Of a stretch of 64,000 bases of DNA, positions 946 through 43,306 are shown piece after piece. The position numbers and the translations under genes are program-made. Every line of letters starts with the position of its first letter. Position 1 is the stretch's first letter. This DNA is from Clostridiales bacterium. Its GTDB lineage: Bacteria > Bacillota > Clostridia > Lachnospirales > Lachnospiraceae. The DNA lies in NCBI GenBank assembly GCA_021202925.1, contig JAJQCD010000019.1:1-64000 (forward strand). The letters run 5' to 3'. The notes under the pieces are model-generated. The model saw only the letters and a list, made by a program, of their open reading frames with translations, was not told the origin of the DNA and searched no databases.

Positions 946-2811
946 TCACATGGGATACGCATAGATCGGCGACATTATCTGATGATTCGTAATATTCCTA
1001 TGCCTACGCACTTCTTCTAATGTCAACGGAGGCAGCTTTCGGCATAAGCCCGGCTTTACTCGAAACTTGTCCTTCGGCTCTTCTTTTTCTGGTGGTTCTA
1101 CCAGATAATCCTTCATATAGATTTTCGCCTGCTCACATGGAAAGGAGGAAAACAGATATACCGTGCATGGATTTCGAAGGAGCCTTGCACGTCCGACTGC
1201 TTGTTCTAACTCACTTTCCAGAGAATATAATTGGATCTCGCGTAAAAGCTCATCGGAGTATGCCATCATCAAAAAACGATTCCCTTTATATGTAACACGC
1301 TGATAATGCGGCCTCGCATCTTCTTTCTTATTGACATCAACGCCAAGATAACACGCAGGCAGTTTATAAGCCTCCTCATTTTTATATGGAGTACCAATGA
1401 TTCCGATGTCTCGTCCCTTTAGACCATTGATTCCGGTCAGATTACCAAAATGCAACCCTTTACAGGATCGTCCCGCCTCATTTTCGAACTTTTTAAACGT
1501 CAGAACAGGAAGATCGGGATCTCCGGAATATTCGCGTATGAACTCGAAAATCTCTGTTTTCTTTTTCAGATCATTCCGGCCTAATGAGTGGTAAGAATAT
1601 TGCTTTAACGTACCAGCATATGCAACCTTCTTTTCCGGATAGGAAATGACTTTCATATCCTTTTTGAAATATGTCCTGTAGATCTTCTCATTCAGCGTTG
1701 CTGACAGCACAATATACTTTCCCGGAGACAGCTTCTGTGGACAAAAATAGTGTACAACGCTTCCCCTCCGACTGTCATCCTCCTTAATATATGCTCCTGC
1801 CAGAAAAAGATCATTCACATCATTTTCCTTATCGCAACAAATTCCATATTCACTAAGCTGCTCCTCCGTAAATGGCATTGCTGCGGATAACGGTTCCCTT
1901 CGGATATAGATTCCTTCTTTTGCAGCCAATATCTCATCTGCAATTTCTGACAGTCCTGGAACTCTTTTTTCGCTGAGTCGTTCTAACGTTTCCACATCTA
2001 CACAATGGCTGTTGCTGAGTATCTGTAAATACAGGATATCTTCGTCTATAATAACTATGTACTGGCTCAACAGCTCCGATGGAACTTGAAGCAGATACGC
2101 ATGTGTTGTTACTACCACACGTTTATCTTCCATCCCTTTTGCACCTTTCATCAGGTTCTCACACAGTTCAGCCACTGCGCTCATACAGGGATCATCTTTG
2201 ATTTCCTGATAATAACTGGCAATCATACTCTTTGTCCGGCCATGCAGTCCTGCTTCGTGAAAGTATGATATTTTCTCCTGAATCTCTCTGGGAATAAAAC
2301 AATTTCCATGAGCACTTGGAGTGATGAATAAATCTTCATCTGTGATTCCATGGCTCTTCAAGTCTTCTCCGATCTGTTCTTTCAGCGTATTCGTTGGCGC
2401 CGCTACCAACACCTTAGCCTGTGGATGTTTCTCAATCCAGTTGATGTACATTCTTGTTTTCCCTAAGCCTGTCTGCGCTTTGATCATGTGAATTCCATTT
2501 CCAGTATAGGAAAATGCCTGATCCAGATTCTCCTCCAGACACATGGACACTTCCTCCAATGTCACGTAAGTTTCCTTCTTCTGATAAACCTTTCTCCCCA
2601 TAGTTAGTGCATCCACTATGGCCCCCCTGTTTTCGCATTCTTCATAATAAGGACATACTTCCTTACTGCATTTCTCAGGGCGATAATTTTTTATATCTCT
2701 TTTGTAATCCTGTTCCCATTTTTTACAGCTTTCCTCACCATAACCTTTTTCCAGCAAAGCAAAGAATTGTTTCACACCACCGTTAATATAGTTCATATTC
2801 GTCAGTATCAT
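946..2811 (-). CDS. SF2-type helicase/ATPase of a mobile replication module
   Basis: A 621-residue protein with helicase signatures in order: Walker A AQTGLGKT (about residue 112), a DE-box IIDEDI (about 255), motif III SATLNE (about 372) and motif VI QAVGRARLLRNP near residue 555. This fits an ATP-driven superfamily-2 helicase, with DEDI in place of DEAD/DEAH. A cysteine group C-x4-C-x5-C lies ahead of Walker A (about residues 48-59) and may bind metal. It follows the primase-like gene by 51 nt on the same strand, so the two are probably co-transcribed and work together in priming and unwinding. The start at 2811 has only a weak Shine-Dalgarno sequence. A chromosomal repair helicase is less likely given the setting and base composition. 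Confidence 0.75.
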   Translation of the reverse strand: MILTNMNYINGGVKQFFALLEKGYGEESCKKWEQDYKRDIKNYRPEKCSKEVCPYYEECENRGAIVDALTMGRKVYQKKETYVTLEEVSMCLEENLDQAFSYTGNGIHMIKAQTGLGKTRMYINWIEKHPQAKVLVAAPTNTLKEQIGEDLKSHGITDEDLFITPSAHGNCFIPREIQEKISYFHEAGLHGRTKSMIASYYQEIKDDPCMSAVAELCENLMKGAKGMEDKRVVVTTHAYLLQVPSELLSQYIVIIDEDILYLQILSNSHCVDVETLERLSEKRVPGLSEIADEILAAKEGIYIRREPLSAAMPFTEEQLSEYGICCDKENDVNDLFLAGAYIKEDDSRRGSVVHYFCPQKLSPGKYIVLSATLNEKIYRTYFKKDMKVISYPEKKVAYAGTLKQYSYHSLGRNDLKKKTEIFEFIREYSGDPDLPVLTFKKFENEAGRSCKGLHFGNLTGINGLKGRDIGIIGTPYKNEEAYKLPACYLGVDVNKKEDARPHYQRVTYKGNRFLMMAYSDELLREIQLYSLESELEQAVGRARLLRNPCTVYLFSSFPCEQAKIYMKDYLVEPPEKEEPKDKFRVKPGLCRKLPPLTLEEVRRHRNITNHQIMSPIYAYPM

Positions 2812-9084: not shown

Positions 9085-9319
9085 GAAAATAAGCAGCGAT
9101 TTCTCGCTGCTTTTCGCTTTTGTAATCCCAAAATGCCGTTCTTACTTATTGACGCCCAGCAAAAGCCAGGTGGGCAACCTCACGTAAGCTTCTGTCTTCC
9201 ACTGATTGAATGAGGCCTGACATCCGCTTACAAATATCGGAATCCCTATGTCATAATGTAGGTTCAATAATTTGTAAGGTTGTCGAACATTCCAGGAATT
9301 ACAACCAGCTTTCTTTTCT
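9085..9319 (-). ncRNA. ssrS: probable 6S RNA (SsrS)
   Basis: A non-coding transcript with its own promoter (9326-9354) and terminator. The ends of the core pair: TTGTAATTCC near 9295-9304 with GGGATTACAA near 9120-9129 makes a closing stem, beside a second AATG/CATT pairing and a large bulged middle with further stems (GCCTCA/TGAGGT, CCACCTGGC/GCTGGG). A long, mostly double-stranded rod with a central bubble is the 6S shape, and the sequence GTTCGACAACCTTAC is one I associate with clostridial 6S RNA. 6S RNA binds housekeeping RNA polymerase and is used as a pRNA template. The 3' hairpin AAGCAGCGA/TCGCTGCTT (9091-9112) is the likely terminator. Family identity is from memory and needs an Rfam check. 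Confidence 0.7.
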
Positions 9320-38884: not shown

Positions 38885-39433
38885 TTACAGATTAATCAGG
38901 CTGATCACCATCTGCGCCGTCTCAATCAGGTTCGTTCCACTGTCCATACTGCATTTCTGAATATACCGGTGCGCCTCTTCTTCTGTCATACCATTGCGCT
39001 CCATCAGCAATCCCTTCGCCCGGTTAATCAGCTGCTGTTCTTCCTCGTTGCGTTTTTTCGGCTGCTGCCGCTGTTTCCTGCGTCTCCTGTCCTGCGCCTG
39101 CGCCATCATGTCCAACGTGGCTACCAGATCATGTACTTTGAGCGGCATTGGCAGAAAAACCACGTTTTCCGGCGTCCCTGCCGTCCACTTGCGCGGTGAG
39201 GATACCATCAGCATATCGAAACCGGTCGGCATACACTCAGACAATTCCGCAAACAGCATATCGGTCAGTCGATATCCACAGACAATAATTCCACTGCTCA
39301 GATCCTCTGCCTGTGACAGTGTCTGCGCACCAGATGTACAGACCGCGAACACCTGGAAACCGCTTCTGACCAGGATATTCTTAATATTTCTGGCATCTTC
39401 CTGTCTGGAAAACGCCACGATCACATTTGCCAA
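38885..39433 (-). CDS. nitR: ANTAR-domain antiterminator, NitR-like
   Basis: A 182-residue two-domain protein: a receiver-like domain (about 1-115) that lacks a clear set of phospho-acceptor residues, then a basic hinge RRRRKQRQQPKKR and a C-terminal ANTAR RNA-binding domain (about 130-180, INRAKGLLMERNGMTEEEAHRYIQ). ANTAR proteins bind paired hexaloop hairpins and stop termination. A regulator of this type (NitR) downstream of glnA is known from Clostridium saccharobutylicum, where it controls glnA. The likely start is TTG at 39433 with GGGAGG 7 nt upstream; the alternative is GTG at 39448, which would overlap that site. Confidence 0.82.
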   Translation of the reverse strand: MANVIVAFSRQEDARNIKNILVRSGFQVFAVCTSGAQTLSQAEDLSSGIIVCGYRLTDMLFAELSECMPTGFDMLMVSSPRKWTAGTPENVVFLPMPLKVHDLVATLDMMAQAQDRRRRKQRQQPKKRNEEEQQLINRAKGLLMERNGMTEEEAHRYIQKCSMDSGTNLIETAQMVISLINL

Positions 39434-39490
39434 CCTCTCACCTCCCACGATCGTTCAGGTGAATCTGTCAAAAACATATACATCCGCCGC

Positions 39491-40828
39491 TCAATATTTA
39501 TACAGATATTCCGCCACTTCCCAGTCTGTGACCTCCGCGCGGAATTTTTTCCACTCGGCCTCCTTCGCCTCCAGATATTTCGTGAAAATATGCTCCCCCA
39601 GCACTTTTCTGACAAAATCACTCTTCGCAAAATATTCGATAGCCTCTCCCAGCGTCTCCGGAAGCTGTTCGATTCCCCGTGCTGTCATCTCGTCCTTTGA
39701 CATGGCAAAAATATTACTTTCCACGCTTGCCGGCGGAACCATTTCTCCACGTATCCCGTCAAGTCCCGCCGCCAGACAGACTGCCAGCACCAGATAAGGA
39801 TTCGCCGCGGTATCCGGGCAGCGCAGTTCGATCCTGGTGCTGTCCTCGCGACTCGAAGGAATACGGATCAGGGGACTTCGATTGGCAGATGCAGACCAGG
39901 CCACATAAACCGGCGCGTCATATCCGGGCACCAGACGCTTATAGGAATTAATCAGCGGATTGGTCAGAAGCGTGATCTCTTTCATATGTTTCAGAATTCC
40001 GGCCATGAACTGGTAGGCGACCCGGCTCAGTCCCAGTTCATCCGACGGGTCATAAAACACATTGATTCCGTTCGAATCCGCCAGAGACATATTAATATGC
40101 ATACCGGAACCGTTGACTCCCGCCTTCGGCTTTGGCATGAAGGTCGCATGCAGACCATGGCGCTTCGCAATCGTCTTCACCGCCATCTTAAACGTTACAA
40201 TGTTATCCGCAGCCGTCAGACCATCCATATATTCCAGGTCAATCTCATGCTGTCCGGGCGCCAGTTCGTGATGGGATGCTTCGACGGCAAATCCCATCTC
40301 TTCCAGATTCATCACGATATCCCGGCGTACATTCTCTGCCGTGTCAATCGGCGCCACATCAAAATAGCCGGCATTCTCCAGCGTACTGGTCGTCGGCCGC
40401 CCGTCATCATCCATATGAAACAGGAAAAACTCACACTCCGGTCCTACATGGAACGTATATCCCATGTCAGCCGCTTCTTTGAGAACCTTCTTCATCACAT
40501 AGCGGGGATCGCCCTCAAAGGGCTCCCGGTTCGGACGATAAACATCGCAGAACAGACGGGCCACCTTGCCCTGCTGCGGACGCCAGGGATAGATTTCAAA
40601 CGTATCCAGATCCGGATACAGATACATATCCGACTCCTCAATGCGAACGAACCCCTCAATGGCAGAGCCGTCGAACATGCATCGATTCTCCAGTGCTTTC
40701 GGCAGCTGGCTCGCGGTAATGGCAACATTCTTAAGCATGCCGAATATGTCGGTAAACTGGAGGCGGATGAACTCCACATCTTCTTCCTCAACCAGACGGA
40801 TGATATCTTCTTTATTATATTTGCTCAT
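39491..40828 (-). CDS. glnA: glutamine synthetase, type I
   Basis: A 445-residue GSI enzyme that makes glutamine from glutamate, ammonia and ATP. It carries [21 protein letters not shown] (beta-grasp signature), GPECEFFLF, the ATP site [17 protein letters not shown] and the substrate loop [11 protein letters not shown]-x6-STRIELR. The size fits the short clostridial type without the adenylylation loop. The ATG at 40828 has AAGGAGAT 7 nt upstream; 92 extra in-frame codons upstream are leader. Control is probably at the leader (40829-40952) through NitR. Confidence 0.96.
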
Positions 40829-40952
40829 CTTTGATCTCCTTTTCTTTACATAGTCGTTTGCACAGGTCCTGGCAACCTTCGCTATGCCCCTCCACGCAAA
40901 AGAGGGTGGCTGATGCGCACGAAACGCTTTTCGTCGAACACCCTCGTTCCAT
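40829..40952 (-). promoter_or_regulatory. structured leader of glnA with a terminator-like hairpin
   Basis: The predicted 124-nt leader contains GAGGGTG (40939-40945, read on the minus strand) paired with CACCCTC (40902-40908), enclosing an inner ACGAAA/TTTCGT stem, followed by TTTTGCG. This is a plausible attenuator. A later AGGT/ACCT hairpin sits nearer the start codon. Together with the downstream ANTAR gene this fits antitermination control. I could not find a clear A-x2-AG hexaloop. Confidence 0.6.
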
Positions 40953-40958
40953 ATCAGA

Positions 40959-40987
40959 ATCATAACAGTCCGGACAATCTTTGTCAA
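40959..40987 (-). promoter_or_regulatory. sigma-A promoter of glnA
   Basis: Minus-strand consensus -35 TTGACA (40982-40987), 17-nt spacer, -10 TATGAT (40959-40964). Confidence 0.85.
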
Positions 40988-41144
40988 TTGGTTTCCAGTC
41001 AGGCATGTTTCTGCAAAAGAAGCGGTCACCGGCTCTTTCTTCTGTCCCAAAGAAGAAGACATACTGATCTGCTCGTAATTGTTTGCATCTGGTTTCGTTT
41101 TCATTTATAATGAAATAATCTTATCCACTATGTGAGGAACTGTC

Positions 41145-42104
41145 ATGGAAGAACGAAAAAAAACCTGGCTGGGAAACCAGGTTCAGGCATGTGAATTATG
41201 TCCCAGAAAATGCCGGATCAACCGCCTGCAGACCCGCGGCTTCTGCGGCGCTCCCGCCGGAATCGTCGCAGCCCGGGCCGCACTGCATGCATGGGAAGAG
41301 CCATGCATCAGCGGCATACGCGGAAGTGGCGCTATATTTTTCAACGGCTGTACGCTCCGTTGCCGTTTTTGTCAGAACCAGCGAATCAGCCGGGATTTTT
41401 TGGGAATGGCACTCGACCCTGAAACACTGGCAGATACGATCCTCAGACTTCAGGAACAGGGTGCCCATAACATCAATCTGGTTACGGCCACACATTTCCT
41501 GCCGTGGATCCTGCCTGCTCTGGACACAGTCCGCAATCAGCTGCATATCCCGGTCGTCTATAACTGCGGAGGCTACGAACGCGTGGAAACAGTGGAAATG
41601 CTCCGTGACGATATTAACATCTGGCTGCCGGATTTGAAATACTTTGATCCGGCCCTGTCCAATCATTTCTCTGCAGCGTCGGATTATTTTGAGATCGCTT
41701 CCGCCGCCATCCGCCAGATGATACGGCAGACCGGTGCGCTGCAATTCCATGAAGAAAAAGAGGCCAATGGGCAGACACATCTCGTCCTGGATCGTGGCGT
41801 CATCGTTCGTCATCTTGTCCTGCCCGGCCACAAAGAGGATTCGATTCAACTTCTGCACTGGATGGCCGATTCCCTGCCGCGCGGCAGCTTCCTCATCAGC
41901 CTGATGAGCCAGTATACCCCCTATGCGACAGATGACGACTACCCGGAACTCAATCGCCGCATCACCAGCTACGAATATCAGAAAGTTGTCGATGCAGCCC
42001 TGGAACTTGGTCTGAACCAGGGCTATATGCAGAAAAAAAGCAGCGCCCGCGAAGAATATACGCCATCGTTTCATCTGGAAGGCCTGATCAGGCCAGATAC
42101 CTGA
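41145..42104 (+). CDS. PflA-like radical SAM protein
   Basis: A 319-residue radical SAM enzyme with the cluster motif CTLRCRFC (C-x3-C-x2-C, about residue 75) and an N-terminal cysteine group CELCPRKC-x-N that resembles the extra cysteines of YjjW/PflA-like activases. The group is annotated as putative pyruvate formate-lyase activating protein (COG1313); the substrate is not known. LVTATHFLPWI and the closing LGLNQGYMQ fit this family. No glycyl radical enzyme gene is adjacent. Confidence 0.85.
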   Translation: MEERKKTWLGNQVQACELCPRKCRINRLQTRGFCGAPAGIVAARAALHAWEEPCISGIRGSGAIFFNGCTLRCRFCQNQRISRDFLGMALDPETLADTILRLQEQGAHNINLVTATHFLPWILPALDTVRNQLHIPVVYNCGGYERVETVEMLRDDINIWLPDLKYFDPALSNHFSAASDYFEIASAAIRQMIRQTGALQFHEEKEANGQTHLVLDRGVIVRHLVLPGHKEDSIQLLHWMADSLPRGSFLISLMSQYTPYATDDDYPELNRRITSYEYQKVVDAALELGLNQGYMQKKSSAREEYTPSFHLEGLIRPDT

Positions 42105-42170
42105 AAACGCTCCTCGATTTTGTACAGCAGCAGAAGCTGTCACTGACAGTCTCTTTCGCCTTGCCTTGTC

Positions 42171-42686
42171 AGACAAAATGAAAGCGGATATCCATGATTC
42201 TGATTGTTACTCATTCTCATCGATATCCGCTTTCAGTTCAGCTCATCCATTGGACTATACCTCGCTTCTTCAGATTGGTACTTTCCCGACTCTCATCGTG
42301 TACCTGCACTCTATATGAAATTGTATCCTCCGTATCCGCTCCTCAACCGCTCTTCTATACTTTCCTCTCAAGTCTCTTCTGCTTAATCGATCATCTTTTG
42401 CTGTTCTTCTCTTCCCAACTGTACTTTCTCGTCATACAACCAGGCGGATGAAGCAGTTCTCTGATCATACTCTCATTCGGATTTCTTTCCAATTGTACTG
42501 CGGTTCTCTGCGCTACGGATTCTTTTCCTCTGTCTCTAACCTGTCATCCTGTACAGGAGAGACTATCATAAAGTGTTCTTTGGACCGTACCTCCTATTCT
42601 TAGATTTTTGAGATCTCCCTCACGATGGAATTTCTCTTTTGAAAACTTCTCTGTTTTCTTTTGTTTATCTCTCTCTTATTTAACTG
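42171..42686 (-). ncRNA. stand-alone, purine-rich structured non-coding RNA candidate (about 500 nt)
   Basis: The 737-nt gap between the radical SAM gene and darA has no reading frame over 60 codons on the minus strand, yet holds a full transcription unit: promoter 42692-42720 and terminator 42180-42234. The RNA is strongly purine-rich. Local stems can be read: GTCTCT (42558-42563 on the minus strand) with AGAGAC (42532-42537), enclosing the palindrome CCTGTACAGG; and GGTAC/GTACC (42300-42304 with 42277-42281), enclosing CGA/TCG. A near-repeat CAGAGAAC-[C/T]-GC appears twice. No gene follows on that strand before the terminator, so it is not a leader. I compared it by eye with RNase P RNA, tmRNA and SRP RNA and saw no match. 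Confidence 0.65.
42180..42234. terminator. long inverted-repeat terminator shared by the orphan RNA and the radical SAM gene
   Basis: GAAAGCGGATATC (42180-42192) and GATATCCGCTTTC (42222-42234) are perfect 13-bp arms. On the minus strand the stem is followed by ATTTTGTC, making it the likely 3' end of the RNA; it may also stop plus-strand readthrough from the radical SAM gene. Confidence 0.75.
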
Positions 42687-42691
42687 TCTTT

Positions 42692-42720
42692 ATCTTAACA
42701 GATGTTTCTCCTTTTGTCAA
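42692..42720 (-). promoter_or_regulatory. sigma-A promoter of the orphan RNA
   Basis: Minus-strand consensus -35 TTGACA (42715-42720), 17-nt spacer, -10 TAAGAT (42692-42697). Start expected near 42685. Confidence 0.8.
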
Positions 42721-42841
42721 GCATTTTTTCAATTTATTTTAACTTTTTCTTCTTATTATTGGTTAATTATAATTTAGTCTTGTCCATTCGATGATTATTC
42801 CTCTATTTTATCGGTTTAATTTATCCTGAATGTTTGAAATT

Positions 42842-43177
42842 TCAGAATTTTTCAAACCGTTCCACATCGGTCACAAATATGGTAGCGCCGCCAACCTCCA
42901 CCTCGGTTGGAATCGTCGCAAACCCGGCAGACATGGTTCCTGTGTGAGGCGCCGGCAAATCGCACATAATTTTCTGTCGTTTTCCACAGGTCTCCTCAAT
43001 CAGATGAATTGCTTCATCGACCCGCTCCTTTTCTGTTTCAATCATCAGGGTTGCATTTCCCTTCTTCAAAAATCCTCCGGTTGTCGCCAGCCTGGTTACC
43101 ATATAGCCATGTTCATTCAACACCGCAGTCACTCTTGTTCCATCACTCGATCCGACAATCGCGTAAACAATCTTCAT
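42842..43177 (-). CDS. darA: cyclic-di-AMP receptor, DarA/PstA family
   Basis: A 111-residue PII-like protein that binds c-di-AMP. It shows MKIVYAIVGSSDGTRV, LATTGGFLKKGNATLMI, ERVDEAIHLI and the closing EVEVGGATIFVTDVERFEKF, all lining up with DarA of Bacillota. The trimer senses the nucleotide but its output is unclear. The ATG at 43177 has GGAGGA 7 nt upstream; the frame before it is not used. It lies just upstream of the orphan RNA on the same strand, but that RNA has its own promoter. Confidence 0.93.
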   Translation of the reverse strand: MKIVYAIVGSSDGTRVTAVLNEHGYMVTRLATTGGFLKKGNATLMIETEKERVDEAIHLIEETCGKRQKIMCDLPAPHTGTMSAGFATIPTEVEVGGATIFVTDVERFEKF

Positions 43178-43306
43178 ATTCTGTTCCTCCATCACTGATC
43201 CTGCAACCATTGCTTCCATCCGGGCAGAGATAGCCTTCGTCTCCGCTCTTCCCTGCCCGATTCCGTCCTCTTCCGTATCTCTGCCGCATGCGCCCGGACG
43301 GCACTG

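Follow-up and report, generated by a model that had tools for sequence, protein, structure and literature searches.

In the window, by which we mean the whole 64,000-nucleotide stretch of DNA that was analyzed, a darA-like gene (42842-43219, minus strand) ends upstream of a minus-strand promoter, and a PflA-like gene (41145-42104, plus strand) lies convergently downstream of the RNA that this promoter would drive. Both neighbours had been described in an earlier note made from the sequence, and the names PflA and DarA are assumed assignments, that note's and ours. The promoter, TTGACA-17-TAAGAT (42692-42720), was found as that note had given it, with the -35 box TTGACA at 42720-42715, a 17-nt spacer, the -10 box TAAGAT at 42697-42692 and 10 of 12 consensus matches; a TG precedes the -10 box, which makes it an extended one. 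From this promoter and a hairpin at the other end, we predicted an RNA of about 515 nt (42171-42685, minus strand), which, at 65.6% purine, agrees with the strongly purine-rich RNA of ~500 nt that had been proposed. The longest ATG frame on its strand is 25 codons, and long frames are indeed lacking. When folded, the RNA reached -135.6 kcal/mol (-104.7 ± 5.1 for dinucleotide shuffles, z = -6.1) and none of 100 shuffles folded as low. A glutamine-synthetase-like gene followed directly by a gene for an ANTAR-like protein was also seen nearby (39491-41104 and 38885-39448, respectively, both on the minus strand, named by eye).

The 3' end of the predicted RNA combines a ribosome-binding sequence, a tiny open reading frame (ORF) and a terminator-like hairpin. 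A terminal box formed by the Shine-Dalgarno sequence GAGG and then TCCA (42251-42265, minus strand) leads into ATG GAT GAG CTG AAC TGA (42233-42250, minus strand), which would encode MDELN and has 5-6 codons in relatives. The stop of this terminal ORF abuts the terminator-like stem, its last two bases being overlapped by the hairpin (42180-42234, minus strand). The perfect 13-bp stem announced by the earlier note is there, with 13 perfect pairs between 42234 and 42180 (GAAAGCGGATATC/GATATCCGCTTTC), and only ATTTTGTC, a weak U-tract, follows it; the U-tract is strong in some relatives (e.g. L059, L084). The window's hairpin was absent from the list of a simple terminator scan that works with stem and loop limits. 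Across 36 aligned sequences, the terminal hairpin has 15 pairs, with 95.5% of cells paired and two-sided changes in 12 of the 15 pairs. The description of the RNA as non-coding is right in that no long frame exists and incomplete at the 3' end, where a Shine-Dalgarno sequence and a conserved 5-6-codon ORF are found.

The distribution of this RNA was followed by DNA similarity and with two covariance models, R1, built on a central hairpin (see below) and holding no 3' sequence, and R2, built on the RNA's 3' end. DNA similarity detected the RNA in 16 of the genus's 23 other genomes but not in any of 37 genomes from other genera; a second query found it in 20 of the 24 genus genomes. Among 299 family genomes, R1 matched 10, one of which is the window's own. 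It returned nothing at E≤0.001 in two genomes of a Hungatella-like genus; genome G093 reached E 0.009 in the family search and carries the RNA by sequence, despite this weak score. R2 matched 186 of 397 Lachnospiraceae genomes at E≤0.01, and because some low R2 scores are ordinary terminators, the count was made at E≤1e-6, where 116 of the 397 genomes and 103 of 334 genera remained; the RNA is not the orphan it had been taken for. When read, seven family loci at 40-50 bits and three at 36-40 bits all looked like members. Conservation within the genus is strong: R2 matches 22 of 24 genomes at E≤0.01, and for 21 of these the E-value is no higher than 2.5e-10 (G008 reached only 26.9 bits; G009 and G017 gave no R2 match). 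Upstream of the RNA, 76 of 91 family loci show a TTGACA-16/18-TANNN[TA] promoter pattern.

Beyond the family, R2 matches were mostly terminators, and two loci look like members. At class level, 13 matches fell outside this family (f1), at 28-35 bits, and 12 of these are gene-end terminators or unrelated; the one that looks real, L144, comes from another family (f74). On its reverse complement, at about 1480-1900, L144 has a promoter-like sequence, a box with ATG GAA GAG TAA, a purine-rich middle and a Shine-Dalgarno sequence with a 9-codon ORF that ends inside the terminator stem. At the level of the order, 16 of 295 genomes matched R2 at E≤1e-5, 15 of them within the family, and the match outside it, L229 (G843:C285:16932-17809, in a genome listed with 6% contamination), reads Shine-Dalgarno-TCCA-ATG GAT GAT CGT TAA and then a hairpin, a 4-codon version with a member-like 3' end. 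A pattern search with the 18 bases around the central loop returned 27 stretches in named genomes, including Hungatella hathewayi and Hungatella effluvii; matches in Paenibacillus and Flavobacterium had neither box nor ORF and were dropped as chance.

The terminal ORF is kept to a nearly fixed length in most members. All 22 genus homologues have a start codon in place, and their frames close after five codons in 20 cases and after six in two; in G018, GGA replaces the window's TGA and TAG follows one codon on. Among the loci of other genera found with R1, eight of nine have an ORF of 5-6 codons, and at the exception, L064/L111, it runs to codon 11. These two sets, from R1 and from DNA similarity, constitute the independent check on the ORF. 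The 91 R2 loci (31 returned loci and 60 fetched places; 16 weak loci, L130-L132 and L134-L146, and the window's own locus are left out) are not an unbiased sample, since the training sequences of R2 contained the ORF, and in them it has five codons in 76, six in 13 and more in two. For one of the two longer ones, L201, a misreading by the script is probable; by eye it reads ATG GAA GAG ATT ATA GTT TAG. From base composition, a first stop at codon 6 or 7 would be expected in 11% of cases, against 89 of the 91 loci observed. Starts are ATG in 67, TTG in 22 and GTG in two of these loci, and stops TAG in 42, TAA in 42 and TGA in seven. To our knowledge, such an ORF would rank among the shortest conserved coding sequences.

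A direct explanation would be that the peptide is the product. The RNA would then serve as the mRNA of a very small peptide, in many cases MDSIV or MDEIV, and its long 5' region would be regulatory. These two peptides are indeed encoded at 16 and 11 of the 91 loci, respectively, and synonymous codons are used for Asp (GAT 39, GAC 37), Glu, Ser and Val (all four codons). Nevertheless, the peptides vary widely (METSS, MGIAV, MDHEI, MIEVH) while the length stays, and Ile at codon 4 is written ATA in 42 loci and ATT in three. Nor did any gene for peptide maturation or export come to notice within the 1.5-kb flanks. The Ile codon bias is a hint that the ORF may be constrained at the RNA level besides its coding, and we consider a messenger for a peptide rather unlikely.

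Upstream of the terminal ORF, most of the RNAs carry at least one further box resembling AAUCUAAGAAAGGAGGUACGGUCCA, in which a Shine-Dalgarno sequence is followed by CCN, AAG or AUG. In the window, this 5' box (AATCTAAGAATAGGAGGTACGGTCCA, 42566-42606, minus strand) has AAG at the start-codon position and an in-frame TGA at codon 5; AAG also replaces the start in L118, L154, L156, L157 and L203. A box profile matched 102 of 107 RNAs (49 RNAs with one match, 46 with two, six with three and one with four), in a set that contains some loci twice and with the terminal box counted wherever it scored. With a pattern that requires CC[AG]CC, we found 86 boxes in 79 of 99 distinct RNAs, and the CCN frame meets a stop at codon 4 in 64 of them and at codon 3 in eight, vs 13, 0, 1 and 0 of 86 when the box codon was shifted; because the length of the motif is fixed, these in-frame stops are no proof of translation. 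A start codon is present in 15 internal boxes, 12 of which have two or three codons before the stop (e.g. MKT, MKI, MGS, MY, MQK). A frame that enters the 5' box from upstream was dropped as a candidate, some members having an in-frame stop just upstream when inspected by eye. We also considered that the boxes might pair with one another or fold on themselves, and a GGAGG/CCACC hairpin is possible by eye; across 78 RNAs, no helix with convincing covariation was found among the box columns. The boxes therefore look like single-stranded motifs for a partner, which would most simply be the 30S subunit.

Conserved boxes in a purine-rich RNA (family median 65% purine) could also point to a sponge or scaffold that binds protein, candidates being Hfq or another RNA-binding protein, with the ORF secondary; the lack of covariation in the boxes is compatible with such a role. 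CsrB-type sponge RNAs offer the obvious parallel, as stand-alone RNAs with repeated GGA-containing motifs. However, the boxes here look like ribosome-binding sites and CsrA was not found in the window's genome. CsrA is present in 11 of the 24 genus genomes, and 12 of the 13 that lack it carry the RNA, which led us to reject a CsrA sponge for the window's genome and CsrA as the general partner. A protein sponge also leaves the conserved ORF unexplained, and on balance we hold it to be unlikely, without being negligible. A simple mass sponge acting through the number of anti-Shine-Dalgarno sites was tried as well. At dG≤-8, two long RNAs had no more sites than the mean of 20 shuffles (5 vs 5.5 and 4 vs 4.4), and the other four gave 2 vs 0.75, 3 vs 1.1, 4 vs 1.6 and 3 vs 1.8; only the fifth of the six RNAs (4 vs 1.6) exceeded every one of its shuffles, which speaks against such a sponge.

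Between the boxes and the terminal module, the RNA of the genus is folded. Its central hairpin (42417-42441, minus strand, loop GACGAGAAA) has 11 pairs, with 96.1% of cells paired and two-sided changes in 8 of the 11, and none of 500 shuffles scored as high on any of five measures; the rows of this alignment were selected by the loop 15-mer TATGACGAGAAAGTA, and the invariance of the loop in it is therefore by choice. The 15-mer occurs in 20 of the 22 genus homologues found by DNA similarity; the hairpin is missing in G015b and diverged in G006. Upstream of it lies hairpin A (GTCTCT...AGAGAC, 42532-42563, minus strand), a stem that covaries in 31 aligned sequences. Next to this stem, the 5' strand of a long-range helix (UCCGU, 42512-42521, minus strand) pairs with ACGGA at 42309-42334 (minus strand), a segment that also holds the conserved AATTTCATATAGAG; relatives have UCUGC/GCAGA and UCUAC/GUAGA in place of UCCGU/ACGGA. 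Hairpin A, this helix and a further helix, GTTATC/GATAAC, vary with pairing kept in part of the 31 sequences. A 5' hairpin (GAAAACAGAGAAGTTTTC, 42641-42658, minus strand) has a variable counterpart in many relatives. Of the features that the earlier note had read in this region, GTCTCT/AGAGAC stands as hairpin A, GGTAC/GTACC (42277-42306) has look-alikes in some relatives, and the CAGAGAAC-[C/T]-GC near-repeat (42500-42510 and 42453-42463), which is missing in the nearest relative (G018), is unconserved and looks like chance. Covariation, which that note had proposed to look for, was found in the central hairpin, the terminal hairpin and hairpin A.

The long-range helix, the covarying multi-helix middle in the genus and the low folding energy given above would suit a self-assembling or catalytic large RNA like ROOL or OLE, in which the ORF would only shield the 3' end. 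Nevertheless, the middle is almost missing from L191 and L199, which are about 150 nt long and contain little beyond box, ORF and hairpin, and the 15-mer of the central hairpin lies upstream of the ORF in only 22 of the 91 R2 family loci, making this explanation improbable.

The RNA stands alone at its various loci. In the 29 loci with at least 1 kb of downstream sequence, the next downstream gene shares the RNA's strand in 15 cases and lies on the opposite one in 14, a random orientation that led us to reject a cis leader or riboswitch and agrees with the earlier view that the RNA is not a leader. A cis-acting device of another kind, antisense or 3'-UTR, might still be imagined for a neighbour such as the PflA-like gene, which is convergent downstream in 11 of 37 loci examined, as well as in the window; with other neighbours at the remaining loci and this even split of orientations, we judge any device serving a neighbour, leader included, very improbable. 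The existence of several strong copies in some genomes (three in G015, two in G093) could hint at a mobile or selfish element, which we find scarcely credible because the promoter, ORF and helices are conserved, the position beside the PflA-like gene is common to several genera, the window RNA had no match in phage or plasmid records and an 18-base box had none in viral contigs.

The RNA corresponds to no catalogued class that we searched. Rfam 15 (4227 models, gathering thresholds) gave no match over the RNA in the window or in the loci of 40 relatives, and an E-value scan of 42090-42850 returned nothing credible, in keeping with the earlier note, which could place it in no large RNA class. 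All matches obtained lie off this RNA: 6S RNA in L037 and in the window, where it is the sole match (RF00013, 80.9 bits, 9121-9301, minus strand), and the Clostridiales-1 RNA in L046 of G013 (RF01699, function unknown, 1106-1263, plus strand), about 250 nt upstream of the RNA's promoter and, by eye, apparently unrelated to it.

We know of no class that combines start-less Shine-Dalgarno boxes with an obligatory terminal ORF of 5-6 codons. The terminal ORF has the parts of a minigene (start, few sense codons, stop and Shine-Dalgarno), as reportedly does the lambda bar minigene, whose frame likewise spans a few codons behind a Shine-Dalgarno site. Unlike in minigenes, the ORF here forms the obligatory 3' terminus of a structured, independent RNA, lies directly against the terminator and is found family-wide. 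The same few-codon design with a Shine-Dalgarno site is described for axe-txe in the accessible part of PMC8708949. With dual-function small RNAs, as presented in the accessible part of PMC5521070, the likeness is a separate RNA that also carries a conserved ORF; the survey reported there considered ORFs of 10-50 amino acids, whereas the class described here has 5-6 codons, a fixed length and start-less boxes. ROOL, GOLLD and OLE are likewise large structured stand-alone RNAs (PMC12286853, accessible part), but the RNA of the window differs from them by its terminal ORF, a middle that is dispensable in short members and the lack of an Rfam match. The downstream-peptide RNA, in the accessible part of PMC2864571, is also a structured RNA followed by a short ORF backed by synonymous changes; however, it belongs to the 5' UTR of cyanobacterial ORFs of 17-100 residues, compared with 5-6 codons here, and Rfam does not match it to our RNA. 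The class is not described in the accessible parts of the literature consulted, including PMC8040213, PMC11109978, PMC2864571 and PMC5521070; supplementary candidate tables of earlier surveys may list parts of it.

Altogether, comparison of the sequences makes it well supported that the window RNA belongs to a class of stand-alone RNAs, mainly of Lachnospiraceae, that is not yet catalogued. Its members have a sigma-A-type promoter, usually at least one Shine-Dalgarno box that mostly lacks a start codon (CCN or AAG), a folded middle that ranges from almost nothing to several hundred nt, a terminal Shine-Dalgarno with its ORF of mostly 5-6 codons, and a terminator-like hairpin abutted by the stop of this ORF.

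Because members end in a tiny gene set against a stop signal, the RNA probably works by engaging ribosomes. The constant feature across members is a stop codon set against the hairpin, with the start five or six codons before it; and since conservation is stronger for the length and signals of the ORF than for the peptide, what matters is probably that the ORF is translated. Our leading reading, still tentative and a little short of an even chance, is that these are trans-encoded RNAs that engage ribosomes, with a translated terminal ORF for which the act of translation matters. Under this proposal, a ribosome would initiate at the terminal ORF, make a few peptide bonds and then stop at the hairpin; at the start-less boxes, 30S subunits would bind or probe the RNA and not initiate. 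The geometry of the ribosome puts the hairpin at the mRNA entry of a ribosome that initiates at the terminal ORF, so that hardly any RNA further downstream would be left for a ribosome to load on. Acting in trans through such engagement, the RNA might serve as a decoy, sense initiation capacity or form a scaffold anchored to ribosomes. The further proposal that this RNA, with start-less boxes that in some members form arrays, counts or holds ribosomes and regulates translation by its own brief translation, and by neither a peptide nor antisense pairing, is possible but distinctly doubtful.

Lachnospiraceae rank among the major families of the human gut, and this RNA is present in 116 of 397 of their genomes at the strict threshold, yet has no Rfam 15 model. 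It makes testable whether cells signal by translating a five-codon frame rather than by the product of that frame, and boxes in which CCN or AAG occupies the start position would constitute a natural experiment in ribosome binding without initiation.

Some members also show local peculiarities. In L063, about 250 nt of imperfect GCAGTACAGGAAGTAATGT-like repeats separate the central hairpin from the terminal ORF, and L190 and L195 (G418:C12, 22057-22345) are two terminal modules on one strand, about 200 bases apart. In addition, the terminal hairpin loops of L006, L009, L010, L012, L015, L016, L059 and L067 often contain TGTCAA, the complement of the -35 sequence TTGACA, which may be chance.
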